Shown here: in pieces, positions 43,178-62,419 of the stretch | Position numbering within the stretch: position 1 is the first letter of the stretch | Layout: the number at the start of each line of letters is the position of its first letter | Assembly (NCBI RefSeq): GCF_003054705.1 | Contig: NZ_QAYX01000025.1 | Span: forward strand, 62,001-126,000 | DNA length: 64,000 bases | Source: Opitutus sp. ER46 | GTDB lineage: Bacteria; Verrucomicrobiota; Verrucomicrobiia; Opitutales; Opitutaceae | Direction of reading: 5' to 3' | The notes under the pieces: model-generated | Database searches by the model: none | Seen by the model: only the letters and a program-made list of their open reading frames with translations | Told to the model about the DNA's origin: nothing | Made by a program: the position numbers and the translations under genes

Positions 43178-44824
43178 GTGGCCAAAATACTCGCAATCGA
43201 TGACAGCCTGACGATCCGGAAGCTCGTCGGCATGGTCCTGCGTGGCGCGGGGCACGAGGTGCTGCTGGCCGAGAAGGGCGCAACGGGCCTCGAACTCGCC
43301 CAGAGCGAGCACCCGGAACTGATCCTGCTCGATTACGTGCTGCCGGACATGCAGAGCCCCGTCATCTGCCAGCGACTGCTGGAGGATCCGACGACGGCGG
43401 ACATTCCGGTGCTGCTCATCAGCACCAACGGAGGCGCGATCCGCCAGCTGTATGCCGACAGCCGCAACGTGCGGGACTATCTGACGAAGCCGTTTCAGGC
43501 GAAGGTGCTCGAGAGTGTCGTGGAGCATCTGTTGACGAAAAAGCCGAGCGGGGCCGCGGGAGAGAGCGAGGCCGCCGCCGTGCTGCCGACCGGTTCAAAC
43601 GCCCCGGTTCCGGCGCTCACTGCCTCCGGTTCCACGCCTCCCGCGCCCGTGGTGGGCGTGGTGGTGCCGTTTGCCGATCCGGAGCCCGCCGGTGCCCAGC
43701 CGGTGCCGCCGGCGCGAGCCGAGCCCGCGTCCGTGCCCCCGCCGCCGGCGCGCTTCGGACCCGGCGTGGCGTCGGCCATGGCCAACGACGGCCACGCCGG
43801 CCTGCGCACGCTGCTGAACGCGCGGTTCCGGGCAATCGCCAGGATGCTCCCGGAACTCGAGACGCGGCGCGGGCCGCTGCCGGCGGAAACGTACTACCTG
43901 CCGTTTCTCCTGCGCAACGAACTCGTGTCCGAGATCGTGGCCGAGGTCAGCCGCACGCAGATCTCCGCCGACCAGGCGATGCCGCTGATTGCCGGCACGC
44001 ACGAGTGGATGGGAATCGACACGACGTTCTTCCACCTCGGCCGCACGCTCGCCACCGGCGTCTTTTCCCTGCGCCTGCCGCAGGAGACGGTCGATGTTAC
44101 GCTGTTGCGGGGCCAGGTCGTGATGGTGGGTTCGAATAACCCGCGCGTGTATTGCGCCGGCGCCACCTACAACTTCCGGTCCGCTCCGCCGCCCGCCATT
44201 GCCGCGGCGGTCGCCGCGCAACAGCGCGACGGCACGCCCTTCTTCGTCACGCTCGCGCGCCTGGGCGCGTTGCGCGACGCCGCGGTGCTCGCCGCGCTGC
44301 TGCGCACGCAGGGCGTGCGCGCCGTCCACCGGGCCATGGTGACGCCTGGAACGCGCTACGCCTTTCTCCCGCGCGAGAACCTGCCGGAGTTCACCCGCCA
44401 GTTCGCGCTCAACCTCGACGTGCGCCAATTCGTGCTCGAGGTGCTCCGGGGTGTGGACGACTGGCTCGAGATCGAGAGCACCACCGGATCGGTGGAAACA
44501 ATCTTCGCCCGAGACGGCGCCGCCGAAATGATTCTCCCGCTCCTTTCGCTTACGCCGGAGGAGTCCGCGGTCGTGGCCGCGGTGGATGGCCGCTTGGCGC
44601 TCCAGGAACTCGCCGCCCGCGCCGGCCTGGATCTCTTCGGCTCCTGCGCAATCGCGTACCGGCTGCTCAAGCTCGGCATCATCCGCGTCGCCGCGAGCGC
44701 GGCGCCGGCCGCGCCCTTTTGCGACCCCAGCGTCGAGGAGTTCCTCCAGGGAACGGCTGCCGAAGCCTGGAGCCCGCCACCCTCGACGCCCCGGTCCCGC
44801 CACCCGCTTTCCTCCCAAGATTAA
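43178..44824 (+). CDS. PatA/PixG-like receiver-DUF4388 protein
   Basis: A 548-residue protein with an intact N-terminal receiver (IDDSLTIRK; Asp52 in LILLDYVLP; Lys in YLTKPF), a Pro/Ala linker (about 125-195), and a DUF4388/PatA-like region (about 205-340, including LGRTLATGVFSLRLP and VVMVGSNNPRVY). A C-terminal helical part follows and ends in Pro/Ser-rich sequence. PatA-type proteins act in cyanobacterial heterocyst and type IV pilus signalling. The start is GTG at 43178, right at VAKILAIDDS. It leads a row of CheY, CheW and MCP genes in the same order as the pix genes. Confidence 0.82.
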   Translation: MAKILAIDDSLTIRKLVGMVLRGAGHEVLLAEKGATGLELAQSEHPELILLDYVLPDMQSPVICQRLLEDPTTADIPVLLISTNGGAIRQLYADSRNVRDYLTKPFQAKVLESVVEHLLTKKPSGAAGESEAAAVLPTGSNAPVPALTASGSTPPAPVVGVVVPFADPEPAGAQPVPPARAEPASVPPPPARFGPGVASAMANDGHAGLRTLLNARFRAIARMLPELETRRGPLPAETYYLPFLLRNELVSEIVAEVSRTQISADQAMPLIAGTHEWMGIDTTFFHLGRTLATGVFSLRLPQETVDVTLLRGQVVMVGSNNPRVYCAGATYNFRSAPPPAIAAAVAAQQRDGTPFFVTLARLGALRDAAVLAALLRTQGVRAVHRAMVTPGTRYAFLPRENLPEFTRQFALNLDVRQFVLEVLRGVDDWLEIESTTGSVETIFARDGAAEMILPLLSLTPEESAVVAAVDGRLALQELAARAGLDLFGSCAIAYRLLKLGIIRVAASAAPAAPFCDPSVEEFLQGTAAEAWSPPPSTPRSRHPLSSQD

Positions 44825-44835
44825 CTCATCCAATT

Positions 44836-45198
44836 ATGGCCAAAGTTCTTGTTGCTGATGATTCCGCCACCGCGGTGGCACTGCTGCAAAATGCCGTGTC
44901 CGAAGCCGGACACGTCTCGCTGGTCGCCACGAATGGCGATGACGCGATGCGACTCGCCGTCGCCGAAAAGCCCGCGCTCATCCTCCTCGATGTGGTGATG
45001 CCGAAAGTCGACGGCTTCCAGGTCTGCCGCCGGCTGCGCAAGCAGCCCGAAACGGCGAGCACGCCGATCGTCATCGTGACCTCCAAGGACCAGGAGACCG
45101 ACAAGTTCTGGGGCATCCGCCAGGGCGCGAACGACTACATCACGAAGCCGTTCGAGCCCAAGGCGCTCGCCGACTTGATCCGCAAACACATCGGTTGA
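44836..45198 (+). CDS. CheY-like single-domain response regulator
   Basis: A 120-residue stand-alone receiver. All active residues are present: ADDSATA, Asp52 in LILLDVVMP, Thr in VIVTSKD, and Lys in DYITKPF. There is no output domain, so it probably acts by protein binding, for example on a pilus motor or on another signalling protein. It starts 11 bases after the PatA-like gene. The position matches PixH/PilH-type CheY proteins. Confidence 0.92.
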   Translation: MAKVLVADDSATAVALLQNAVSEAGHVSLVATNGDDAMRLAVAEKPALILLDVVMPKVDGFQVCRRLRKQPETASTPIVIVTSKDQETDKFWGIRQGANDYITKPFEPKALADLIRKHIG

Positions 45199-45209
45199 GC
45201 GACCGCGCG

Positions 45210-45674
45210 ATGAAACCCGCCGATCGGGCCAACTCCACCGTGCATCTCGTCGCCCAGCGCGCGGGGCAGCGCTTTGCGCTCTCCGTCGCGCATGTGCGCG
45301 AGGCGATCGTGCTGCCGGAACTCGAGCGCGTGCCGTTGGCGCCGCCCGAGGTGCTGGGTTCATTCCAGCTCCGGGGCGAGATCGTGCCGGCGGTCCTGCC
45401 CGATCGGCTGCTGGCCATCGACGCTGGCACCTCGGCGCCGGGCGTGCTCGCGCTGGTGCGTGAGCGCGATACGACGATCGGTTTCGCCTTCGACCGCCTG
45501 CTCGGCGTCACCGCGGTGGATCCCGCCGCGCTGCTCCCGCACCCGCTGGCGAAGCGCTGCCGCTGGATGTCCAGCCTCGTCCTCGATCCTCGATATCAAC
45601 TTGTGACCGTCATCGATGGCTCGGCCCTCATCACCGCGCTGATCGACCAGCTCCAATTTACCCCCGCGGCCTGA
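45210..45674 (+). CDS. CheW-like adaptor
   Basis: A 154-residue CheW domain that would link the chemoreceptor to CheA. The typical pattern is seen: [45 protein letters not shown] (read in parts), then VTVIDGSAL near the end. The ATG at 45210 is chosen; a TTG at 45195 that overlaps the CheY stop is an alternative. It lies 137 bases before the chemoreceptor gene. It is the first of three CheW-domain proteins in the operon apart from CheA. Confidence 0.85.
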
Positions 45675-45811: not shown

Positions 45812-48214
45812 ATGAAACCGAACACACCTCAAGCCATTCCCAACCCCTCCGCGGGAGCGGAGCATGCCTCCCGCAAGAGCTCCCTCAAGGTCAGCACGAA
45901 GATCACCCTCCTGAGCTTCTCCATGGTCGCCCTGACGGTCGTCGTCCTCACCGCGATTGTCTTCGTGCAGAAGAGCCGCCTGGCGCCGGTGCTGGGCAGG
46001 TATCTCGACGAACAAGCCTTCGCGGAATCCAGCAAGATCGTACGGATCATCCGTGACAACTGCGCCAGCGCCCAAACGCAGTCTCACCGCCAGCTCGAGC
46101 ACGGGCTGACGGTGGCACGCGAGACGCTGTTGGCCAAGGGCGCGGTGACGTTTGCCGGCGAGAGCGTCGCATGGGAGGCCGAAAACCAGGTCAACCAGCA
46201 GAAGGTGCGCGTCGACCTGCCGAAGTTCTGCGTCGGCGGCGAATGGATCGGTCAAAACGCGAACTGGAAGGCCCGGTCGCCGATCGTGGATGAGGCCCGG
46301 CACTTGACGAACCTCCAGGTCACGCTGTTCCAGCGCATGAACGACGCGGGCGACATGCTCCGTGTCGCGACGACGCTGCAGCGTGCCGATGGGTCGCGCG
46401 CGATCGGCACCTTCATCCCGGCCACGAATGCGGACGGTCAGCCCAACGCCATCGTCGCGTCGGTCCTGAAGGGGGAAAACTACCTTGGCCGCGCCATGGG
46501 CATGGATACGTGGTACCAGGCGATGTACGAGCCGCTCTGGGATGCCGCGCATCAGAAGGTGATCGGCATGCTCTTCGTGGGTATGGACATGACCGAGGCC
46601 ACCCGCGCCGTGCGTGAGAGCATCGCGAAGATCACGGTGGGCAAGACCGGGTACGTCTTCGTTTTCGGCAGCAAAAATGACCTCCGCGGCAAGTACATCG
46701 TTTCCCAGAACGGCGCGGCCGACGGAAAGCAGATGTGGGAGACCCGCGACACCAACGGCGAGTTTGTTGTCCAGAACATCATCAAGGCCGGCCTTGCCAG
46801 CCGCGGCGACCGTGCCGAGCGGGTTAATTACCTCTGGTCCGACCCAGGCGCCGCGCGGGCGCGCGAGAAATTCTCCGCGGTCACCTATTTTGAACCCTGG
46901 GACTGGGTCATCGGCGTGAGTGCATACTACGACGAGTATCGCGAGTCGCAGGACGCCGCCCTGAGCACGCTCTCCCAACTCCTGGTGTGGACTGCCGGCG
47001 TCGCGCTCGTCCTCGTGGCGGCCGCCTTCATCGTGAGCAAGCGCCTCGCGCTCAGCGTTACCCGCCCACTCACCGTGCTCATGCACACGGCGCAGCAGAT
47101 CGCCCGCGGCGACAACAACGCTCGGGCTGCAGTGGAGTCCGACGACGAAATTGGCCAGCTGGGCGAGGCTTTCAACTCGATGCTGGATGCGCGCGTGAAG
47201 GCGAAGGAGGAGACCGATGATTACAAGAAGCTCCAGGAGGGCATTCAGCAGCTTCTCCGCGTCACGGCCGACGCCTCCGACGGCGACCTGACGGTGCGCG
47301 CGCCGGTGACCGACGGCGCGCTCGGCAACGTGAGCGACGCCGTGAACCTGATGCTCGAGAATGTCGGTGAGCTGATCAAAAACGTGCAGGAGTCGGCCAA
47401 GGTGGTCGCGAACTCCGCGATGGAGATCCAAGCCTCCTCCGAGCAGCTCGCCCGCGGCGCCAACACGCAGAACCAGGAGATCGTCAACACGAGCTCGGCC
47501 GTGCAGGAGATGGCGGCCAACACCGAGTCCGTCTCCAGCAACGCTGCGGCTGCCAACGAAGCCGCCGGTCGCGCCCGCAAGGCCGCTGAAGAGGGCACCA
47601 AGGCCGTTCAGGACGTCATCAGCGGCATGGAACGCATTCGCGAGAACGTGCAGGCCGGCGCCAAGAAGATCAAACGCCTCGGCGAGCGCTCGATGGAAAT
47701 CAGCACGATCGTGAACACGATCAACCAGATCTCCGCCCAGACCGACATGCTTGCGCTCAACGCTGCGATCGAAGCGGCGCGCGCCGGCGAACACGGGCGC
47801 GGCTTCACCGTGGTCGCCGAGGAAGTCCGCAAGCTGGCCGAACGCGCCGCCGCCGCCACGCAGGAAATCGAGAAGCTGGTCGCCTCCATCCAGGCGGAGA
47901 CCAACGAGTCGGTGACCTCGATGGAACAGCAGACCGTGCAGGTCGAGGAGGGCTCGCAGACGGTGACGACTGCCGGCGCGTCGCTGGACCGCATTCGCGA
48001 AGCGTCCGTGCAGTCGGCCGAACTGATCAACGAGATCTCTCTGGCGGCCAAGCAGCAGGTGCGCGGCGCGAACGGCGTGGTGTCCGCCATGCAGACGGTC
48101 TCCCAGATCGCGCAGCAGGCGCAGGGCGGCGCCGGCCAGACCCGCCGCGCCACCGAGTCGCTGGTGACGCTCGCCAACGAGCTCCTCGGCCGCGCCGTCA
48201 AGTTCAAGGTCTGA
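45812..48214 (+). CDS. methyl-accepting chemotaxis protein with periplasmic Cache domain
   Basis: An 800-residue chemoreceptor. Its first membrane helix is at about 31-52. A large sensory region (about 53-385) contains a Cache-type fold with [16 protein letters not shown] and [10 protein letters not shown] as typical segments. The second helix is at about 390-412, followed by HAMP (about 413-465) and a long signalling domain with the conserved hairpin tip at [34 protein letters not shown]. Glu/Gln-rich segments could be methylated by the CheR encoded next to it. The ligand is unknown; Cache domains usually bind small organic molecules. Confidence 0.95.
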
Positions 48215-48235: not shown

Positions 48236-49063
48236 ATGATTGCCCTGCCGCCCATCGTGGGTGCCGTGGCTTCGGCTGGCACCGACGCCGCCTTCGCCGA
48301 CCGCGTACGCGCGCTCGTCGCGGCTCGGTTCGGGTACTCCCCGCGGCCTGCTGCGATGGCTTACCTGCGGAGCGTGCTGGCGCAAAGGCAGGCATCGCGG
48401 CCGGCGGAGGATTACTGGCGGCTGCTCCTCGGCTCGCCCGAGGAGTTGCAGGCGCTCGTGGAAGATATGCTCAACCACGAGACCGCCTGCGGTCGCACGC
48501 CGCCGCACTTCGAGGCGCTGCGCCGGTTCGTCCTGCCGGTCCTGCTGACCAGCGGCCGGGCCGTGCGGATTGCGTCGCTGGGCTGCGCCACGGGGGAGGA
48601 AGCGTACACGCTGGCGCTGACCGCGATCGAGGCCGGTGACGTCGGGGACGCGGTGCAGGTGGTCGGGCTCGACCTCTCGCACCGCGCGCTCCGCACCGCG
48701 CGGGCCGGCGAGTACTCCGAGTTCAGCGTGCGCGAACTCAGCGACCCGCAGTGCGCCGCGGGTTTCATCCGGGCCGGCGGCACCTACCGGGTGCGGCCGC
48801 AGGTCGCCCGGAAGGTGCGTTTCGTCCAGCATAACCTGCTCGAGCCGCTGCCGTTGGTGGGCGTCGAGGTCATCTTCTGCCGCAACGTGTTGATCTATTT
48901 CGAACCGGAGGCCGCGAATCGCGTGCTGGCCAATATCCGCGACGCGCTGGCCCCCGGCGGCTGGCTGTTCCTGGGCCACTCGGAGTCCGCGCTGCATCTG
49001 CGGGCGTGGTTCGAGCCCGTGTCCTTCGCCGAGACGCTAGTGTATCGCCGACGCTCGTCATGA
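48236..49063 (+). CDS. cheR: chemotaxis methyltransferase CheR
   Basis: CheR, 275 residues, methylates Glu residues on chemoreceptors using SAM. It has an N-terminal helical domain (about 20-90), the SAM motif SLGCATGEEAYTLAL, and the late landmark EVIFCRNVLIYFEPEAANRVL. It starts 21 bases after the receptor gene and its stop overlaps the cheA start (ATGA). Along with cheB it shows the system adapts by methylation, which PixG-L-type systems often lack. Confidence 0.94.
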   Translation: MIALPPIVGAVASAGTDAAFADRVRALVAARFGYSPRPAAMAYLRSVLAQRQASRPAEDYWRLLLGSPEELQALVEDMLNHETACGRTPPHFEALRRFVLPVLLTSGRAVRIASLGCATGEEAYTLALTAIEAGDVGDAVQVVGLDLSHRALRTARAGEYSEFSVRELSDPQCAAGFIRAGGTYRVRPQVARKVRFVQHNLLEPLPLVGVEVIFCRNVLIYFEPEAANRVLANIRDALAPGGWLFLGHSESALHLRAWFEPVSFAETLVYRRRSS

Positions 49064-52000
49064 ATTCTTCCTCTTCTTCCCCCGAACGCCTTGCGGAACT
49101 GGTGCAGCAACTCGCTGCGTGCCTCGTCACCGCGGTGGGCTCCGATCGCGGCGAACAGGCGCGTGCCATCGCCGGCCAGATTGAACAGACCGCGCTCGAT
49201 GGCGGGCTGCCGCTCCTCGCCGGGGCGGCGATCTGCATCCAGCAGCGGCTCCAGCAGGCCGCGCTGTCTCCCGATCCGACGTCCGATCTCGCCGGACTGG
49301 CCGAGGCCTGGACGAGCTACGGTCCGGGGCTCCTCGCCCCCGCCGGTGATCCCGTGCTCGAGGAAGCCTGGCTCGCGCTGCAACCTCATCTCGCGGTCCA
49401 GCTCGAGGAGGGCGGTGATCCGCTCGTGGCCGGGTTGCCCGCCAGCGCGGGTCCCAATGATGCCATCGATGCCGGCGCGTTTCTCGACAGTCTTGACGCC
49501 CCGGCGGATGAGCAGCCGGCACCCGAAGCGCCGTTGCCCACGGCGGAGACTCTTGCCGCGGCGGTGACGCCGGAGCCGTCCGCGCTGCCGGCCGCCGCAC
49601 CTGCACCAGTACTCGCACCCGCCGCCGCACCCACGCCGGCCGCGCCGGCCGAGGAAGAGGAGGTTCCCGCCGAGATCATGGATGCGTTCGCGCAGGAGTC
49701 GCGCGAAGCGTTCGAGGCGATGGAGCAGTCGATCATGGCCTGGGAAAAGCAGGGCCAGGGGCGCGAGGACCTGCGCAATGTTTTCCGTCTCACCCACTCG
49801 GTGAAGGGCGCCGCGAATTCCGTCGGCCTGAAGGTCGTCGGCACCGTCCTGCATCGGCTCGAGGACACGCTGGAAGATCTCGTCGAGGGCCGCGGCCGGA
49901 TTGCTCCGGAGCCACTTTCGGCGCTGGTGCTTGCGATCATCGACACGTTGCGCAGCGACTTCGCGAGCGGCGCCTGCAGCCAGCCGGCCTGGCAGGCGAC
50001 CGCCGACGCGCTGGTGGCGCGGATCGTGGCGCTGCGGAGCACGATGGCGCCGCTGGACGCGCCCGCGGAAGTCGTCGAGCCCGCGGCTGAAGCCGCAGTC
50101 CCGGCCCCGGCTCCGGCGGACGAATCTGACCTGTCCACCGCCCCCGAGGCGCAATCCCTCGCTGCCGCTCCCACCGAGGCACCGGTCGCGACGGCTCCGA
50201 GCAAGACGAGTGTCGTCTCCGGCACGCCGCCGGCTGCGGTGGCCGAAGCGGCGCTCGCGCATCCCGAGCGCAGCACGATTCGGGTCGAGACGTCTCACCT
50301 CGATTCGCTGATGAACCTGGTCGGCGACCTGCTGATCAACCGGCACCGGCTCAACCGGAAACTGCAGCAGGTGACGTCGCTGCGCGCCGAACTGGTGCGC
50401 GCCCGCGAGCGGCTCCTGCACGTGGTGGGTGATTTCAACAGTCGCTACGAGTTCTCCCAGCGTCGCGCCGCCGCGGCCGCGCCGAGCGACGGGTTCTCCG
50501 ACCTGGAGCTGGATCGTTACGATGACTTCAACATTCTCTCGCGCTCGCTCGTCGAGATCGCGGCCGACGCCGAGGAGATTGTCACCCAGATCGACGGTCA
50601 TTTTGGCTCGTTCTCCGAGGAGGCGGTGCAGTTCACCACCGTCACCCGCCAGCTCCAGGAGGAGGTGGCGCGCACCCGCATGGTGCCGCTCGACCAGCTC
50701 TTCCGCCGGCTGCACCGCGCCGTGCGCGATGCGAGCGCCTCCGAGGGCAAGGCCGTCACGTTCACGGTCGAGGGCGCGGATAACCGGATCGACAAGTTCA
50801 TCAGCGACCAGCTGTTCCGCCCCCTGCTGCACATCGTCCGAAACGCCGTGGCTCACGGCATCGAGTCCGGCGCGGAACGCAAGGCAGCGGGCAAGGCGGC
50901 CGAGGGCCGGCTTCACGTCCGGAGTCGCACCGAGGCCGGCCGGCTCGTGCTGGAATTCACCGACGACGGCGGCGGGTTGCGGCGGAAGGCGATCACGCAG
51001 GTGGCCCGCGCGCGCGGGCTCCTGGGGGAGAACGCCGAGGTCGACGACACGCAGCTCGCAGAGCTGATCTTCCAGCCCGGGTTTTCCACGGCCAGCGCGA
51101 CGACCGATGTCGCCGGTCGCGGGGTCGGGCTCGACGTCGTCCGGCAGGAGGTCACCAACCTGGGCGGCACGGTCAACGTCGTCAGCCACGAGGGCGCCGG
51201 CTGCTCTTTTATTCTCACGCTCCCGGTGACGCTGGCGATCAACCAGGTGATGTTCGTCCAGTGCAGCGACCGCGTGTACGCGCTGCCGATCAACTTCGTC
51301 GAACGGGTGGTCAAGGCTTCCGCCGGGGCGTTTACGCACAGCGGCACCTCCGAGTTGCTCCTGCTGGAGGGCCAGCAGGCGATCCCGGTCGTCCGGCTGC
51401 ATGGTCGGCTCGGGCTGCCGGACACGCAGCAGGCCTCCACTGCGATCATCCTCATGCTCGCCGAACGTCGCACGGCGCTGGTGGTCGACCGGATCCAGAG
51501 CAAGATCGACATCGTCGTGAAGCCGCTCGGGCCGGTGCTGAACCGGCACCCGTACTTCTCCGGGGCGACGCTGGCTGGCGATGGCCGCGTGATCTTCATC
51601 CTGGACGTCCCCGGGTTGGTTGCACCGGGCGCCGTGCGCTCCCGCACCGTGGCGGTCGCCGCCCCGGAGGTGTCCGAGCCACTCGATCAGGCCACGCGCA
51701 TCCTGGTGGTCGACGACTCGCTCAGCATCCGGCGCATCGCCGCCCGACATCTCACCGACGCCGGCTACACGGTGGAGACGGCGGTAGACGGCAGCGAGGC
51801 GCTGGAGAAGCTGCGCGAAGGCGGCTATGCGCTGGTGGTCTCGGATCTCGAGATGCCGCGCGTGAACGGTTTCGAACTCATCGCAGAGATGCGGCGCCGG
51901 CCGGACCTGGGCGAGATCCCCGTGTTGATCCTGACCTCGCGCGATGCAGCGAAGCACCGCGACCGCGCCCGCGAACTCGGCGCCGCCGACTACCTCATCA

Positions 52001-52071
52001 AGCCAGTGTCGCGGGAACAGCTGACCGGCGCGGTCGCGGCCAATCTCCGCCGCGCCGGGGCGGCGGCGTGA
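49060..52071 (+). CDS. cheA: hybrid histidine kinase CheA with C-terminal receiver
   Basis: A 1003-residue CheA hybrid. Residues 1-200 are a helical N-terminus plus an Ala/Pro linker. An HPt domain (about 205-290) has the phospho-His at His246 (LTHSVKGAANS). After another linker come the dimerisation helices (about 405-520), the ATPase domain (LHIVRNAVAHG near 590, TDDGGG, GRGVGLDVVRQ), a CheW domain (about 730-860), and a receiver (about 875-1000) with Asp929 in LVVSDLEMP. The ATG at 49060 overlaps the cheR stop. This architecture matches ChpA, FrzE and PixL, which control type IV pilus or gliding systems. Confidence 0.96.
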   Translation: MNSSSSSPERLAELVQQLAACLVTAVGSDRGEQARAIAGQIEQTALDGGLPLLAGAAICIQQRLQQAALSPDPTSDLAGLAEAWTSYGPGLLAPAGDPVLEEAWLALQPHLAVQLEEGGDPLVAGLPASAGPNDAIDAGAFLDSLDAPADEQPAPEAPLPTAETLAAAVTPEPSALPAAAPAPVLAPAAAPTPAAPAEEEEVPAEIMDAFAQESREAFEAMEQSIMAWEKQGQGREDLRNVFRLTHSVKGAANSVGLKVVGTVLHRLEDTLEDLVEGRGRIAPEPLSALVLAIIDTLRSDFASGACSQPAWQATADALVARIVALRSTMAPLDAPAEVVEPAAEAAVPAPAPADESDLSTAPEAQSLAAAPTEAPVATAPSKTSVVSGTPPAAVAEAALAHPERSTIRVETSHLDSLMNLVGDLLINRHRLNRKLQQVTSLRAELVRARERLLHVVGDFNSRYEFSQRRAAAAAPSDGFSDLELDRYDDFNILSRSLVEIAADAEEIVTQIDGHFGSFSEEAVQFTTVTRQLQEEVARTRMVPLDQLFRRLHRAVRDASASEGKAVTFTVEGADNRIDKFISDQLFRPLLHIVRNAVAHGIESGAERKAAGKAAEGRLHVRSRTEAGRLVLEFTDDGGGLRRKAITQVARARGLLGENAEVDDTQLAELIFQPGFSTASATTDVAGRGVGLDVVRQEVTNLGGTVNVVSHEGAGCSFILTLPVTLAINQVMFVQCSDRVYALPINFVERVVKASAGAFTHSGTSELLLLEGQQAIPVVRLHGRLGLPDTQQASTAIILMLAERRTALVVDRIQSKIDIVVKPLGPVLNRHPYFSGATLAGDGRVIFILDVPGLVAPGAVRSRTVAVAAPEVSEPLDQATRILVVDDSLSIRRIAARHLTDAGYTVETAVDGSEALEKLREGGYALVVSDLEMPRVNGFELIAEMRRRPDLGEIPVLILTSRDAAKHRDRARELGAADYLIKPVSREQLTGAVAANLRRAGAAA

Positions 52072-52082
52072 CAAGGAGCGCC

Positions 52083-53219
52083 ATGGCCATTGCCGCCACT
52101 CCTGTCCCTTCGGCCCGCCCCGGAGCTCTCCGGGTGCTCGTCGTGGACGACTCTCCCTTCATGCAGCGCCGCATGGGCGAACTGCTGGAGCGGGATGGCG
52201 ACCTGCGCATCGTGGGCACGGCGCGCGACGGGCTGGACGCGATCCGGCGGGCGGCGGAGCTGCAGCCGGACGTGATCACGATGGACATCCAGATGCCCCG
52301 CATGGACGGGCTCGCGGCCATCGAGCAGATCATGGGCACGCAGCCGCGGCCGATCGTGGTGGTGAGCTCGGTGGTGCGGAGCGACTCGGCGGCGGCGATC
52401 GCCGCGCTCGAGCGCGGGGCGGTCGAGGTGATCGCGAAGCCCTCGGAGGGCGCAATTTCGCTGGACCTGGCGCACATTGGGCACGAGTTGCGCCGGAAGG
52501 TTCGGCTGGCCGCGCGCGTGCGGGTGGTGCGCACCGCCCGGCGGCCGGGGCCGGTGGCGCCGGTCGCGACCGCCGGTGTGAGCGAATTGCCGCGGGGCCA
52601 GTCGACCGCGGAACCGAGCCTGGCGGCGCCGCCGGAGCCGGCGAGCGACGCGCTGACCCTGATCGGCTGTTCGACGGGCGGTCCGGCGGCGTTGCTGGAG
52701 CTGGCGCGCAGCTGGCGGGGCGCGGAACTGCCCCCGGTGATCGTGGCCCAGCATCTGCCGGCGGAGTTCACCGGGGAGCTGGCGCGGCAGATGGCGGAGC
52801 ATCTCGGTGGCTCCGTGCGGGAGGCCCAGACCGGAGATCGGCCCCGCTCCGGCGTCGTGCTGATCGCGCCCGGCGGGCAGCATGTGGACCTTGATGCCGC
52901 GGGCGTCGTGCGCCTGGTGCCGGCGCGGGCCACGGACCCGTGGGTGCCATCGATCGACCGTTTGTTCGAGAGCGGCGCGGCGGCGTATGGCGCGCGCACA
53001 CTCGGCATCGTGCTCACCGGCATGGGCAATGACGGCACCGCCGGCGCGCGGGCCATCAGTGGCGCGGGTGGCACCGTTTGGGCGCAGGACGAAGCCTCGA
53101 GCATCATCGACGGCATGCCGCGCGCGGTGCGCGAGGCGGGGCATGCCGCGCGCGTGTTGCCGCTGGGCGAAATCGGCCGCGCCCTGATCAGAAAACCCCG
53201 GCCCCTTTTGTCCTCATGA
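52083..53219 (+). CDS. cheB: chemotaxis methylesterase CheB
   Basis: CheB, 378 residues, removes methyl groups from receptors. The receiver (about 15-135) has VVDDSPFM and Asp68 in VITMDIQMP. The esterase domain keeps the catalytic triad: Ser197 in IGCSTGGPAAL, His in VAQHLPAEFT, and Asp in LTGMGNDGTAG. An AAGGAG ribosome-binding site precedes the ATG at 52083. The stop overlaps the next start (ATGA). Confidence 0.96.
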   Translation: MAIAATPVPSARPGALRVLVVDDSPFMQRRMGELLERDGDLRIVGTARDGLDAIRRAAELQPDVITMDIQMPRMDGLAAIEQIMGTQPRPIVVVSSVVRSDSAAAIAALERGAVEVIAKPSEGAISLDLAHIGHELRRKVRLAARVRVVRTARRPGPVAPVATAGVSELPRGQSTAEPSLAAPPEPASDALTLIGCSTGGPAALLELARSWRGAELPPVIVAQHLPAEFTGELARQMAEHLGGSVREAQTGDRPRSGVVLIAPGGQHVDLDAAGVVRLVPARATDPWVPSIDRLFESGAAAYGARTLGIVLTGMGNDGTAGARAISGAGGTVWAQDEASSIIDGMPRAVREAGHAARVLPLGEIGRALIRKPRPLLSS

Positions 53220-54211
53220 GCGACCGATCGAAACCTCTCACCGGGCTGCTCTGGCTGCGGACCGGCGGCCTGGACCTGTCCCTTTCCCTGGCGGGCGTGC
53301 AACGGGTCGCCCTTGGCAACCAGCTGCGTGTGGCTCCCGCCGGCCCGCGCGTGCCGCCCTGGTGGAGCGGCGTCGCGATCGCGGACGAACGCGCGCACCC
53401 CCTGCTCAACATGGCGGAGCTGCTCGGCACCACGCCGCATGCGCGGCGGGTGGGGGACGCGGTCGTCGTGCTCACCGCGATGGGCGGACAGCCCGTGGGC
53501 CTCGTGTGCGATCGCTTCCGGGGCATCATTCCGCCGGGGCAGGCCGATTGGGCGCTGCCGGGCACGCTGTTTACCAGCGCCGAGTGCGCGCCCAGCCGGG
53601 CCCGACTCTGGGAGGGTCGGCTGGTGCTGGACTTTGAAACCGAACGCTTTTTCCCGGCGCGGCGGCGCGCCCAACTGGAGCAGGCCATGAAGAATTCGAA
53701 GGAGAACGTCGATCAACTGTGGGAGCTCAGCGAGCTGGAGCAGCAGCTCGCGAATGCGCCTACCGCGAAGGGCTATCGCAACCTCGCCGACCGGTACCGG
53801 AAACTCGGGTGGCTCGAGGATGCGGAACGGATGCTCGCCCGCGCGGCGGAGGTGAAGTCGGACGCGCCCGCCGCCCGGACGACCACCACGGCCGGTGGCC
53901 TCACCGGTCCGCTCACGCCGCGGGTGCTCCTCGAACTCCTGCAGGTGCTGCACACGACCGTGAAATCGGGCGAGCTCCTGCTCGATGCGCCCGGCGCGAT
54001 CGCGGGCAGCATCACGCTCAGCCGCGGCGAGATCATCGACGCGCGGTCGGCCGACGCGGACGATGCCGCCGGCACGCTCCGGAAATTGAGCGCGATCAAG
54101 GCCGGGAGGTACCAGTTCTTTCCCGGGGCGCCCACCGATGCCGAGTCGAAGCTGCCGACGGACACCGCGGCGGTGCTCGCCGAACTCAGCCGGCAGCTCA
54201 GCACGCCATGA
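53216..54211 (+). CDS. CheW-DUF4388 fusion protein
   Basis: A 331-residue protein with a divergent CheW domain at the N-terminus (about 8-150, LSLAGVQRVALGNQL and GQPVGLVCDRFRGIIPP), a coiled-coil-like charged stretch (about 150-215, QLEQAMKNSKENVDQLWELSELEQQL read in parts), and a C-terminal DUF4388 domain (about 230-331, LLQVLHTTVKSGELLLDAPGAIAGSITLSRGEIIDA in parts). I know of no named protein with this architecture. It overlaps cheB and the next cheW by four bases each. It may connect the receptor array to a PatA-type output. Confidence 0.75.
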   Translation: MSDRSKPLTGLLWLRTGGLDLSLSLAGVQRVALGNQLRVAPAGPRVPPWWSGVAIADERAHPLLNMAELLGTTPHARRVGDAVVVLTAMGGQPVGLVCDRFRGIIPPGQADWALPGTLFTSAECAPSRARLWEGRLVLDFETERFFPARRRAQLEQAMKNSKENVDQLWELSELEQQLANAPTAKGYRNLADRYRKLGWLEDAERMLARAAEVKSDAPAARTTTTAGGLTGPLTPRVLLELLQVLHTTVKSGELLLDAPGAIAGSITLSRGEIIDARSADADDAAGTLRKLSAIKAGRYQFFPGAPTDAESKLPTDTAAVLAELSRQLSTP

Positions 54212-54657
54212 ACGCGCCCCGCCACGCTGCTCCCGCGCCTGCGGCCGATTTTCGCCCGGGTGCGCTGGCCCTGCGCATTCGCCGCGGCACCACGCAGTTT
54301 CTCATCCCCCGTGCCTGGGTCCGCAGCGTTGCGCCGATCACCCAGGTTGCGCCGCTCCCGCGCGTGAAGCCGTGGGTGCTCGGGATGGCCCTGCACGCCG
54401 ACCGCCCCGTGCCGCTCCTCGACCCGGCCGCCTATGCGGGCGCGGCCGCGGACGGCATCAAGGCGGCGGTGCTCATCGGCAGGTCGGATGGCGCCGGGCT
54501 GGCGCTGGTCGCGACCGATGTGCCGGGACGTTTCGTGTCGGTGCCGGCGACCGCCTACCTGGAATCGGGCGAGGGTTGGCTGGCGCGGCTGCATGGCTGT
54601 CCGGCCGCCGCGTGGTGGCTTGAGGCCGAGCGGCTGACGACGGAGCTGAAGAGCTGA
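54208..54657 (+). CDS. second CheW-like adaptor
   Basis: A 149-residue divergent CheW domain. Family features are the start strand ALALRIRRGTTQFLIPRAWVRSVAP, the turn VLGMALHADRPVPLLDP, and the end strand GRFVSVPATAYLESGEG. The ATG at 54208 overlaps the upstream stop by four bases, and the gene ends four bases before the next, so it lies firmly in the operon. It is less conserved than the CheW at 45.2 kb and could serve a different receptor or output. Confidence 0.75.
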   Translation: MNAPRHAAPAPAADFRPGALALRIRRGTTQFLIPRAWVRSVAPITQVAPLPRVKPWVLGMALHADRPVPLLDPAAYAGAAADGIKAAVLIGRSDGAGLALVATDVPGRFVSVPATAYLESGEGWLARLHGCPAAAWWLEAERLTTELKS

Positions 54658-54661
54658 GACC

Positions 54662-56362
54662 ATGGCGCGGATCCTGATAGTCGAAGACGACAAGGAAATG
54701 GGTGATCTCATGATCATGCTCGTCGAGGGCATGGGGCATGAGGTCGAACTGGCGACGTCCGGTCCGACTGCGCTGGAGCTGCTGGGCAAGTTTCACCACG
54801 ACGTGGTGTTCACGGACGTGCACATGGAGCCGATGAACGGCCTGCAGCTGGTGGAGCACGTGAAGCAGCTCCACCCGTGCGCGGTCATCGTGTTCATCTC
54901 GGGCGACCTCAGTCCGGAGCTCCAGGCTCAGGGCATGCGCCGCGGCGCGCTGGAGTTCCTGCACAAACCGATCCGGGTCGAGCAGCTGAAGCACGTCCTG
55001 CGGCGGGCGCTGAACCGGTCGGAACGCGAGAAGGTGGCGGCGCGGCCCGAGCCGGACGCGGGCGGGGCGCCGGTGCCCACGGTGCCGGGGCGGCAAAACC
55101 TCGCCTCGGTGGAACTCGAGCTGGAGACATTTTATCCCGGCGCGCCCTTCGCGGTCCTGCGCAACAAGCTCGCGCAGCTCGCGTTGTTGAATCGCTACGC
55201 GCTGATCGAGGCCGCGCCCGACATGCTGAGCGTCGATCTGTGGCGGGTGCTGCACGGGTCGGGACCGTCGGCCAATCTCCCGCTGGTCGTGCGTGACGTG
55301 GCCGCCCAACCCGTGACGACGGCGGACGAGCTGCTGCTGCCGAAGAACGAGGGCACGCTCGTGTTGATGAATGTCGAGGCGCTGCCGGTCGAGGTGCAGC
55401 GGGAGTTGATCGCGGAGATGCGGGAGGCGCGGCGGATGCAAATCATCGCCACCACCGCCTGTGATCCCGACCAGCTGACCGTCGATGGCCGCCTGGTGGG
55501 CACGTTCTACTCGCGGCTGGCCTTGGGAAGCCTGCGCGTCGGCGCGTTGAGTGAACGCGAGGAGGAGCTCCCCGAGATCCTGGCCGCGGCGATGCGGATG
55601 ACCCCGTTCTATCCCTTCCGCACCGCGGCGGTGGAGATTGACCCGGCGGCGGCGGAAGCGGTCCGCGCCTATGCTTGGCCCGGCAACCTGGCGGAGCTGT
55701 GGGCCATCGCGAGCCGGGCGTTGACGGCGATGAAGGAGCCGCGGCTGACGCTGAGCGTGCTCCCCGACCGGATCCGCGGCGCCAAGCTGCCGACGCTGAC
55801 GGCGTCGCTGCGCGAAACCGAGCAGGCCTGCGTGGCCCGCGCTCTGCGGACGCTCGGGACCGTCGAGCGCGCCGCCGAGTCCCTGGGGGTGGCAGCGGCG
55901 GAACTCGAGACCTTTCAGGCGCAGCCGGCCGATTCGCTCTTTATCCTGAAGCGCGACCTGTCGGCGCCGATCCCGGCCGCGGCGCAGCCGATTCAGCGCG
56001 TGCTGCTGGTCGTGGGGGACAACCTCGTCCGCGAAACGGCCGCGGCTGCGCTCGCGGGCCATGACCTCGAAGCGACCATCGTGAGCGACCTGCTGGCGGC
56101 GATTGCCGCCGTGGTGCTGGCGCCGCGGCCCTTCGCCGCCGCCGTGCTGGTGTCACCGCTGACGGCGTTCGATCCCATGGAGGCGGGACAGGAGCTCGCC
56201 CGACTGGCGCCGCAGATGCGGCTCGGGCTGCTCGGTGGCCGCGCGCCGGATGGCGATCCCGGTCCCTTCAAGCTGGTCGCGTCGTCGTTCCGCACGGGGG
56301 CCGACGTCGAAGCTGCCTTTCAGACGCTCATCCACGGCGACATCCAGCGTACGGCCGCGTGA
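54662..56362 (+). CDS. receiver protein with degenerate NtrC-type AAA+ domain and pseudo-receiver tail
   Basis: A 566-residue regulator. Residues 1-120 are an intact receiver (IVEDDKEMG; Asp52 in VVFTDVHME; Lys in FLHKPI). Residues about 150-370 align with the sigma-54 activator ATPase, but the Walker A region reads LIEAAPDMLS with no GxxGxGK, the GAFTGA loop is missing, and Walker B is GTLVLMNVEA instead of GTLFLDE. Later marks survive (TFYSRLALGSLRV, AWPGNLAEL). A Fis-like segment (about 382-425) and a second receiver-like domain (about 436-566) without acidic residues follow. It cannot hydrolyse ATP in the usual way; I infer a scaffold or inhibitor role. It is four bases after cheW. Confidence 0.8.
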   Translation: MARILIVEDDKEMGDLMIMLVEGMGHEVELATSGPTALELLGKFHHDVVFTDVHMEPMNGLQLVEHVKQLHPCAVIVFISGDLSPELQAQGMRRGALEFLHKPIRVEQLKHVLRRALNRSEREKVAARPEPDAGGAPVPTVPGRQNLASVELELETFYPGAPFAVLRNKLAQLALLNRYALIEAAPDMLSVDLWRVLHGSGPSANLPLVVRDVAAQPVTTADELLLPKNEGTLVLMNVEALPVEVQRELIAEMREARRMQIIATTACDPDQLTVDGRLVGTFYSRLALGSLRVGALSEREEELPEILAAAMRMTPFYPFRTAAVEIDPAAAEAVRAYAWPGNLAELWAIASRALTAMKEPRLTLSVLPDRIRGAKLPTLTASLRETEQACVARALRTLGTVERAAESLGVAAAELETFQAQPADSLFILKRDLSAPIPAAAQPIQRVLLVVGDNLVRETAAAALAGHDLEATIVSDLLAAIAAVVLAPRPFAAAVLVSPLTAFDPMEAGQELARLAPQMRLGLLGGRAPDGDPGPFKLVASSFRTGADVEAAFQTLIHGDIQRTAA

Positions 56363-61180: not shown

Positions 61181-62419
61181 ATGGCGGACCCGAGCGGACA
61201 GATTGTCGTGAGAGACATGACTTCCGAGGTCCAGGGCAAGGCGTACCCCGATTACGTAGCCGAGTTGAAGGCCAAGTTTGGCGAGGAAGCCGGCCTGCGC
61301 GCCGCGGTCGGCGGCGACTTCATCGCCACCGGCGTGCTGGAGGAACAACTGCTCCGCTCGCTGGGGTTGCGGGACGACTCGGTGGTCGTGGATGTCGGCT
61401 GCGGGAGCGGCCGGCTGGCGTATCAGCTGCGGCGGTACCCGGGGCTGCGTTATCTCGGCACGGATGTCGTTCCGGAATTGATGGCGTACGCGAAAAAGCT
61501 CTGCGGGCGGTCGGACTGGCGCTTTGAGCCGGCGAGCGGGGTGGGGCTGCCGGCGGAGAGCGGGAGCGCGGATTTCGTGTGTTTCTTTTCGGTGATCACC
61601 CACCTGCCGCACGTGCATTCGTACCGTTATCTGCAGGAGGCGTACCGCGTGCTGAAACCGGGCGGTTGCGTGGTGCTGTCCTTCCTGGAGTTCCGGCTCG
61701 CCTCCCACTGGATCGTCTTCACGGACACGGTGAATACGCCGGGCCAGCACCTGAACCAGTTTGTCGAGCGGGAGGCGATCCGGGCGTGGGCCAAGGCCAT
61801 CGGCTTTGCGGTGGAGCACCTCTTCGACGGTGACCGGCCGCACATCCCGCTGGAGCAGGATCTGGTCTGGCCTGATGGCACGGTGATGCGGGGCCGCGGC
61901 AACCTGGGGCAATCGGTGGCGGTGCTGCGAAAGCCTGACGTCTCGCAGGCACGAAAGCTGGAGGCGCCGGCGACGGGCGACGACGGCGCGACGGCGCGCG
62001 TGACGGCCGCCACACCGGGTTCGCCGTTCGTCGCGCTGTCCACCCGCGGATTTGTCGGCGGGGACGACGCGGTGTTGATCAACGGATTTCAGCTCGCGGC
62101 GGCGGCCTCCGTGGTGGTGCGGGTGTCGGGGCGCCGGCTGGTTTGTCATGGCCTGCGGAACACGCTGGCGCGATCGCACGTTCGGCTGCACGACGCGCAG
62201 GGCCGGGTGATCGCCGAGAATAGCGGCTGGGCGCTCGGCTCGCCGGCGGAGCAGGAGGCGGCGCACGCCTTCCTGGCCAAAGTGGGTACCGAGCCGCTCG
62301 ACGAAACCGGCGAGGAGGCCGTGATTCTGAGGCACCTCGAGCCCGGCGCGTACACCGTGGTGGTCGCCGGCGACGCCGGCACCACCGGGCTGGTGCACAT
62401 CGAAATCGTCGCCGGCTGA
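61181..62419 (+). CDS. methyltransferase fused to a secreted-protein-like beta domain
   Basis: A 412-residue protein. Residues about 1-250 are a class I SAM-dependent methyltransferase (VVVDVGCGSGRLAYQL, YLGTDVVPELM, LKPGGCVVLSF). Residues about 265-412 form a separate beta-rich domain: LSTRGFVGGDDAVLINGF, HVRLHDAQGRVIAENSGW, and PGAYTVVVAGDAGTTGLVHIEI (read in parts). The second domain resembles the C-terminal domains of large secreted Verrucomicrobia proteins, yet no signal peptide precedes the enzyme. A purine-rich GAGGGG lies just before the ATG; a later start at 61217 is possible. The substrate is unknown; the FF-VITHLPHVHSY region is similar to glycan-associated methyltransferases. Confidence 0.8.
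   Translation: MADPSGQIVVRDMTSEVQGKAYPDYVAELKAKFGEEAGLRAAVGGDFIATGVLEEQLLRSLGLRDDSVVVDVGCGSGRLAYQLRRYPGLRYLGTDVVPELMAYAKKLCGRSDWRFEPASGVGLPAESGSADFVCFFSVITHLPHVHSYRYLQEAYRVLKPGGCVVLSFLEFRLASHWIVFTDTVNTPGQHLNQFVEREAIRAWAKAIGFAVEHLFDGDRPHIPLEQDLVWPDGTVMRGRGNLGQSVAVLRKPDVSQARKLEAPATGDDGATARVTAATPGSPFVALSTRGFVGGDDAVLINGFQLAAAASVVVRVSGRRLVCHGLRNTLARSHVRLHDAQGRVIAENSGWALGSPAEQEAAHAFLAKVGTEPLDETGEEAVILRHLEPGAYTVVVAGDAGTTGLVHIEIVAG

Follow-up and report, generated by a model that had tools for sequence, protein, structure and literature searches.

What work is left to a response regulator that is built like a sigma-54 activator and has lost the residues by which such an activator acts? The question is raised by a gene of Opitutus sp. 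ER46 (NZ_QAYX01000025.1) in the window, the stretch of 64,000 nt from position 62,001 to 126,000 of this contig that was analysed as a whole. There the gene is the last in a same-strand run of chemotaxis (Che) genes, with a porin-like gene next downstream. A sequence-only reading had described its product as an intact receiver fused to a decayed NtrC-type ATPase, kept as a pseudoenzyme and reused as a phospho-dependent scaffold. The features of the gene, whose orthologues we call family II, and of its neighbours are collected in Table 1.

Table 1. Features of the focal gene and of the chemosensory operon, in positions of the window
Feature	Coordinates	Strand	Basis
Receiver + DUF4388 (PatA/PATAN-like) response regulator	43178..44824	+	DUF4388 5.6e-5, 23.6 bits vs cut-off 25
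CheY-like single receiver (start approximate)	44845..45198	+	Response_reg 3e-25, residues 232-343 of ORF 44152-45198
CheW	45195..45674	+	domain match
Methyl-accepting chemotaxis protein (MCP) with Cache domain	45812..48214	+	domain match
CheR	48236..49063	+	domain match
CheA with C-terminal receiver (start uncertain)	49006..52071	+	domain match
CheB (start approximate)	52116..53219	+	domain match
CheW-TPR-DUF4388 fusion gene (start approximate)	53213..54211	+	TPR-DUF4388 part is the conserved family II neighbour
Second CheW-like gene; ends 4 bases ahead of focal ATG	54205..54657	+	ORF list, domain match
Focal ORF, family II pseudo-NtrC response regulator	54662..56362	+	566 aa, ATG to stop
Receiver domain; phospho-acceptor D52, S80, K102 present	54662..55015	+	Pfam Response_reg 5e-20, residues 4-113
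Pseudo-AAA+ domain, residues about 148-378	55103..55795	+	AlphaFold2 pLDDT about 93 (residues 151-370)
Former Walker A site, AAPDMLS; Lys replaced by Ser190	55211..55231	+	alignment with canonical regulators
GAFTGA (L1) loop deletion point, LLLPKNE	55331..55351	+	alignment with canonical regulators
M236-N237 in place of Walker B DE	55367..55372	+	alignment with canonical regulators
Second arginine finger R285 present; first is V279	55514..55516	+	alignment with canonical regulators
A344 in place of sensor-II Arg (WPGNLAEL)	55691..55693	+	alignment with canonical regulators
Fis-type helix-turn-helix, cut off; recognition helix unrecognisable	55796..55936	+	alignment with canonical regulators
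C-terminal pseudo-receiver; phospho-Asp and Lys lost, D453 kept	55988..56338	+	AlphaFold2 pLDDT 79; Foldseek, VIA-align

The receiver is indeed intact. Besides the Pfam match and the three residues of Table 1, the focal protein has the acidic pair E8-D9, and in the family II alignment the phospho-acceptor Asp is present in 12/12 rows reaching the site, with Ser and Lys in 14/14 each. By these residues the focal protein qualifies as a phospho-acceptor response regulator. It had further been argued that the frame is uninterrupted and the gene therefore maintained. Antisense to it runs an open frame of 529 aa (54473-56062, minus strand), which we do not count as a gene; because of this frame, an open frame is by itself weak proof of retention in such DNA. 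The retention holds on other grounds, namely orthologues and dN/dS (see below).

The middle of the protein is predicted with high confidence to be an AAA+ fold of the enhancer-binding protein (bEBP) type, as the sequence-only reading had supposed for residues 150-370. An AlphaFold2 model built from an alignment of 30 rows (25 other regulators besides the focal protein and 4 of its orthologues) reached a mean pLDDT of 85, about 93 for residues 151-370, with a pTM of 0.53 that leaves the relative placement of the domains uncertain. The best Foldseek match to the whole model was NtrX (5m7p, E 2.6e-25, low whole-chain TM), and the isolated AAA+ domains of PspF and FleQ matched at a TM of 0.67-0.68 by target length (rmsd 4.0-4.7); NtrX, NtrC1, LuxO, VpsR and FleQ are among the best fold matches. 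In Pfam, AAA_lid_14 matched residues 322-375 at 4e-8 and Sigma54_activ_2 residues 197-296 at 0.0013, the latter under the family cut-off. The best 25 of 98 NCBIfam families all stayed under their cut-offs, the best matches being bEBP models.

Within this fold, the alignment bears out the absence of the Walker A lysine, of GAFTGA and of the Walker B pair; the Walker A stretch reads IEAAPDMLS, so that the P-loop glycine is gone together with the lysine. Two segments had been listed as kept. TFYSRL does preserve the second arginine finger, but the first is lost, and AWPGNLAEL cannot be counted as a kept motif, its sensor-II arginine having been replaced. A loss that had gone unmentioned is that of the Fis-type helix-turn-helix, which ends at the turn and continues into a linker. 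Pfam gave no HTH_8 match in the focal protein; helices at 401-408 and 412-420 remain in the AlphaFold2 model. The set of features that marks a sigma-54 enhancer-binding protein (Walker A and B, GAFTGA, both arginine fingers with the sensor-II Arg, and a Fis-type DNA-binding domain) is thus not present. The protein is by descent a sigma-54 activator; judged by its residues, it has most likely ceased to activate transcription and is probably devoid of DNA recognition. A part in oligomerisation or in weak contact with DNA could remain for the retained second arginine finger and for what is left of the helices.

A VIA-align search with the whole model yielded mainly receiver domains, and the C-terminal domain was therefore folded and searched separately. 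Folded alone from a 5-row alignment, its 124 residues reached a pLDDT of 79. Foldseek returned receiver folds at E 2e-5, and the top seven VIA-align rows had a Z of about 15 and an rmsd of 2.0-3.5 across 111-120 residues. This C-terminus had been called receiver-like and free of acidic residues: the receiver likeness and the loss of the phospho-acceptor stand, but the aspartate D453 remains, and it is found in 13/13 family II rows that reach this position.

Are these losses the accident of a single gene? A profile search found family II in 14/252 Opitutaceae genomes, namely the window genome, ten genomes of genus g7, two of genus g32, and G121. Complete copies number eleven; of the other three, two are merely truncated by the end of their contig (L197 and L201; G270 and G121) and one is frame-broken (G267). 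The Walker A Lys is absent in 14/14 rows; the GAFTGA loop, the Walker B pair, the first arginine finger and the sensor-II Arg are missing in all 13 rows reaching these sites, the contig of L201 ending before GAFTGA and the row being tabulated as a gap for that reason alone. The same losses hence recur across the relatives examined. In G267 (L198), the family II gene and its TPR-DUF4388 neighbour each carry frame breaks, by decay or assembly error; the former may be dispensable there. A plasmid search with the focal protein matched 614 records, none of them spanning 80% of it, and the five rows listed are annotated as sigma-54 regulators. A scan of genome contigs gave at least 4 family II loci, these being among the 80 loci listed, on contigs of four genomes already counted.

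We compared synonymous and non-synonymous changes by pairwise NG86 dN/dS in 8 pairs from 10 family II sequences. The pseudo-AAA+ domain gave 0.05-0.27 in 7/8 pairs, the eighth being saturated. In these pairs the receiver evolves most slowly, at 0-0.14; the C-terminal pseudo-receiver lies at 0.04-0.26, and the first linker reaches 0.66. In family I, introduced below, the pseudo-AAA+ domain gave 0.07-0.30 in 4/5 pairs, with the fifth saturated. These values are rough, since sequences are shared between pairs, the borders of the domains are set approximately and dS approaches or exceeds 1 in several cases; no dN/dS value reaches 1. The pseudo-AAA+ and C-terminal domains are under purifying selection. 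Recurrent losses, a confidently modelled AAA+ fold and purifying selection on a dead domain together sustain the view of a pseudoenzyme that has been reused and maintained.

The next-best matches after family II are proteins of about 420 residues, which we call family I and of which the window genome also has one (G000:C24:416270-417517). In 63 distinct sequences, counted after leaving out L076 (masked) and L034 (a duplicate of L052), GAFTGA is absent throughout, the Walker B DE pair and the first arginine finger are found in 0/63, and the sensor-II Arg in 0/62 rows with the site. The second arginine finger is Arg in 60/63 (3 Lys), the receiver Asp is present in 62/63, and the Walker A Lys in 47/63 (12 His, 4 Arg). 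Close homologues with intact Walker motifs, named in the sequence-only reading as what would speak against it, are thus absent from family II, and family I often has the Walker A lysine and never the Walker B pair. Of 372 genomes sampled from the order, 80 have a match of family I type at E 1e-75, and these belong to five families; the 63 rows are the sequences fetched, a subset of the genomes with matches, so that some of the 80 are motif-checked. In a sample of the phylum, 29/387 genomes matched at E 1e-70, 28 of them Opitutaceae. The other, G744, is the single relative outside the order at this threshold and has a fully canonical NtrC-type regulator, HTH_8 included.

The DNA-binding end of family I is shortened as well. 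In the 58 rows that reach the turn of the helix-turn-helix, the stretch beyond the turn is no longer than 9 residues in 49, 10-13 in 4 and longer in 5, versus 13-40 in canonical regulators (24 rows); L217, L218 and L219 end ahead of the helix-turn-helix. The longer tails are those of L072, L207 and L208 (113-126 residues) and of L205 and L206 (20 each). By eye, the tails of L207, L208 and L072 (about 110-125 residues) appear coiled-coil-like; they come from two different families of the order.

The neighbourhood of family I is nearly constant: a T2SF platform (PilC/GspF) gene lies directly upstream in 28/30 loci. The two exceptions are L206, with no T2SF within 3 kb, and L205, whose contig ends 1.2 kb upstream. 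L205 (G291) is a second family I copy, in whose receiver phospho-Asp and conserved Lys are gone (ARLSM and KIPF, respectively). For the two platform proteins tested, the E values as PilC and as GspF were 1.7e-105 vs 4.8e-102 and 4.4e-110 vs 1.5e-109, and PilC was the best solved-structure match of the one compared. The window genome has four T2SF genes; the one next to its family I gene is not the one adjoining the T2SSE motor gene on the same contig.

How the two families relate to canonical regulators was addressed with trees that take in 8 of the 14 rows of family II and 30 of family I. In a tree of 62 proteins, the decayed proteins separate at 100/100 from 24 NtrC-type regulators, of which eight come from the window genome and were selected by script for at least three canonical motif words, hence canonical by choice, and the other 16 were hand-picked, one of them (L120) without GAFTGA. 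A tree of 63 proteins gave the same split against 25 NtrC-type regulators, again at 100/100; on the NtrC-type side, G744 is the first to branch off. The split recurs in a receiver-only tree (96/74; few columns, long canonical branches) and in one of the lid and helix region (100/99), so that it is not a mere artefact of the lost catalytic motifs; the GAFTGA-less L120 stays outside the decayed group. Family I forms a clade at 94/84 in the 63-protein tree; the tree of the lid region alone gives two changes. Family II may sit beside family I as its sister or may have arisen inside it. From alignment and trees, we regard families I and II as a retained pseudo-NtrC lineage, with which the focal protein clusters and whose losses it shares. 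What had been proposed as a possible new class of output protein is better described as a decayed NtrC-type clade.

Does the protein belong to chemosensory operons? It does so in the window and in G121, as had been claimed from the window, but no Che genes were seen around the gene for 12/14 family II copies in the flanks read (5.8 to 19 kb). A window-type CheA (at least 77% identity) is found in the window genome, G121 and G082 among 16 genomes searched; at E 1e-20 the family II genomes G267, G269 and G270 were without a match to the window CheA. G082 (L238) in turn has a Che operon with the CheW-TPR-DUF4388 fusion but no focal gene after it; where CheB would stand, G082 has no more than 35 residues similar to the end of CheB (E 0.004). 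The TPR-DUF4388 module, on the other hand, occurs at E 1e-12 in 15/252 Opitutaceae, the 14 family II genomes and G082. Its gene lies directly upstream of the family II gene, with a CheW intervening only in the window and G121, where the module is fused to CheW within the Che operon; in G270 the two genes are on separate contigs. Family II is accompanied throughout by DUF4388, and by Che genes in certain lineages only. Because of the three genomes without a CheA match and the G082 operon without the gene, we take the Che link to be either recent or optional. In the focal protein itself Pfam finds no DUF4388; two other genes of the operon have this domain, the PatA-like one below cut-off. The PatA-like regulator, CheY-like protein and CheW ahead of the MCP (43178-45674) give the operon a resemblance to cyanobacterial Pix/Pil chemosensory operons.

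With group I bEBPs of the NtrC family (NtrC, NtrX and PilR type), the focal protein has the receiver, the AAA+ fold with lid, the Fis remnant and its descent in common, whereas it lacks Walker A and B, GAFTGA, the first arginine finger, the sensor-II Arg and the recognition helix and has an extra pseudo-receiver. The loss of the GAFTGA loop it shares with VpsR, HupR, TyrR and the NtrC proteins of R. capsulatus and Caulobacter, each of which presumably keeps its DNA-binding domain. Regulators of the VpsR/HupR type act at promoters according to PMC10274813 and PMC3162934, whereas the focal protein appears to be without DNA recognition. These papers also describe bEBPs without GAFTGA, some of them at sigma-70 promoters, and some bEBPs without a receiver or without a DNA-binding domain are described in PMC7175178. 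The PATAN-CheY regulators of the cyanobacterial Pix/Tax systems (PixG, PixE, LsiR) are likewise Che-tied response regulator outputs with a PATAN/DUF4388 part; unlike in these, the focal chain has a pseudo-AAA+ domain instead of DUF4388, which is found in neighbour genes. Pil-Chp and Pix-type operons controlling type IV pili are alike in gene content, but the operon of the window, for which pilus control would be a candidate role, ends with a pseudo-NtrC. Our literature search found no paper on the pseudo-NtrC family, nor a description of a conserved bEBP-derived clade without catalysis, sigma-54 contact and, by sequence, DNA recognition; among the papers listed, DUF4388 was named in one on Chloroflexi denitrification. 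As far as this search shows, the clade appears new; loss of GAFTGA by itself is already known.

Based on gene neighbourhoods and the Pix/PATAN regulators, we propose with a probability of roughly one half that the retained pseudo-NtrC is a phospho-controlled protein-protein output acting on a pilus or secretion platform. D52 would be phosphorylated by a kinase, in this case most likely the operon's own CheA, and the receiver would in turn alter the assembly of the pseudo-AAA+ domain. The focal protein would then bind a partner without ATP, the nearest candidate being the DUF4388 protein encoded alongside, and the final target would probably be a type IV pilus or type II secretion platform with its motor, so that the chemosensory signal would set pilus activity directly. 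Family II would work through DUF4388, and both families would be phospho-switched adaptors for the platform. The earlier suggestion of a phospho-dependent scaffold fits the intact receiver. We propose such adaptors because the operon of the window is made up of parts like those of a Pix system and because family I adjoins the platform gene. The operon's PatA-like, CheY, CheW, MCP, CheR, CheA and CheB genes correspond in kind to those of the Pix system, and DUF4388 is the PATAN domain. The PATAN regulator PixG binds PilC and PilB1 (PMC12288463), and PATAN-type regulators act on pilus motors (PMC12288463, PMC7690835). Against a pilus target count the position of the focal gene, which is not beside a pilus gene as its sister family I is, the nearly equal scores of the family I platform protein as GspF and PilC, and the finding that the T2SF gene beside family I in the window genome is another than the one adjoining the T2SSE motor gene. 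The recent or optional Che link, the kept second arginine finger with the helical remnant, and the broken gene pair of G267 also weigh against the proposal.

Could the protein instead still work at promoters, like VpsR, HupR or Caulobacter NtrC, with GAFTGA lost and with DNA binding and phospho-regulation of sigma-70-type promoters kept? The GAFTGA-less regulators cited above provide the precedent, VpsR and FleQ are among the fold matches, the two helices persist in the model, and five family I rows have longer tails. The recognition helix is nevertheless cut off or replaced in family II, 53 of the 58 family I rows that reach the turn have at most 13 residues past it, below or at the lower end of the canonical range, and three others stop short of it; we consider a promoter function rather unlikely. 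To a similarly small degree, the pseudo-AAA+ domain might be a sensor for ATP, ADP or c-di-GMP, a nucleotide that it would bind and report on but not hydrolyse. The many Walker A lysines of family I and the fold neighbours FleQ and VpsR, which by their entry titles bind c-di-GMP, are consistent with such a sensor, but the P-loop glycine and lysine are gone from family II, the focal protein included.

A receiver that is complete and evolves most slowly could also mean that the receiver alone matters, as a phosphate sink or a competitor of CheY, with the remainder passive. However, the pseudo-AAA+ domain and the C-terminal domain are likewise under purifying selection, and three family II genomes have no CheA match, which makes this explanation unlikely. 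That the same pseudo-NtrC scaffold serves another envelope or chemosensory protein rather than the platform is doubtful to a greater degree: the DUF4388 neighbour is the sole constant companion of family II, yet family I nearly always adjoins the platform gene, and the PATAN-type regulators described above act on pilus motors. A dying gene or a sequencing artefact, of which the frame breaks in G267 are reminiscent, is highly improbable given that dN/dS is low throughout and that only one copy is frame-broken, with 11/14 complete and the other two merely cut by contig ends.

In summary, we favour the platform-adaptor reading and, more tentatively and at somewhat less than even odds, a joint scenario for both families. 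In an order of Verrucomicrobiota, a sigma-54 activator would have been converted once, a transcription motor becoming a phospho-controlled adaptor that acts directly on the type IV pilus/secretion platform (family I, next to the PilC/GspF gene); duplication, loss of the last nucleotide-binding residues, acquisition of the pseudo-receiver, wiring to DUF4388 and, in some lineages, to a Pix-like array would then have given rise to family II. The intact relative, the family that often has Walker A and the fully stripped family form a graded series of AAA+ decay. If the scenario is true, it would describe a bEBP-derived protein without ATPase, sigma-54 contact or DNA recognition, which automatic annotation is expected to label a sigma-54 or NtrC-type transcription regulator. 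The protein is a candidate output for chemosensory systems, and the link to the pilus makes this reading testable. A group of supposed transcription factors would then be post-translational switches.
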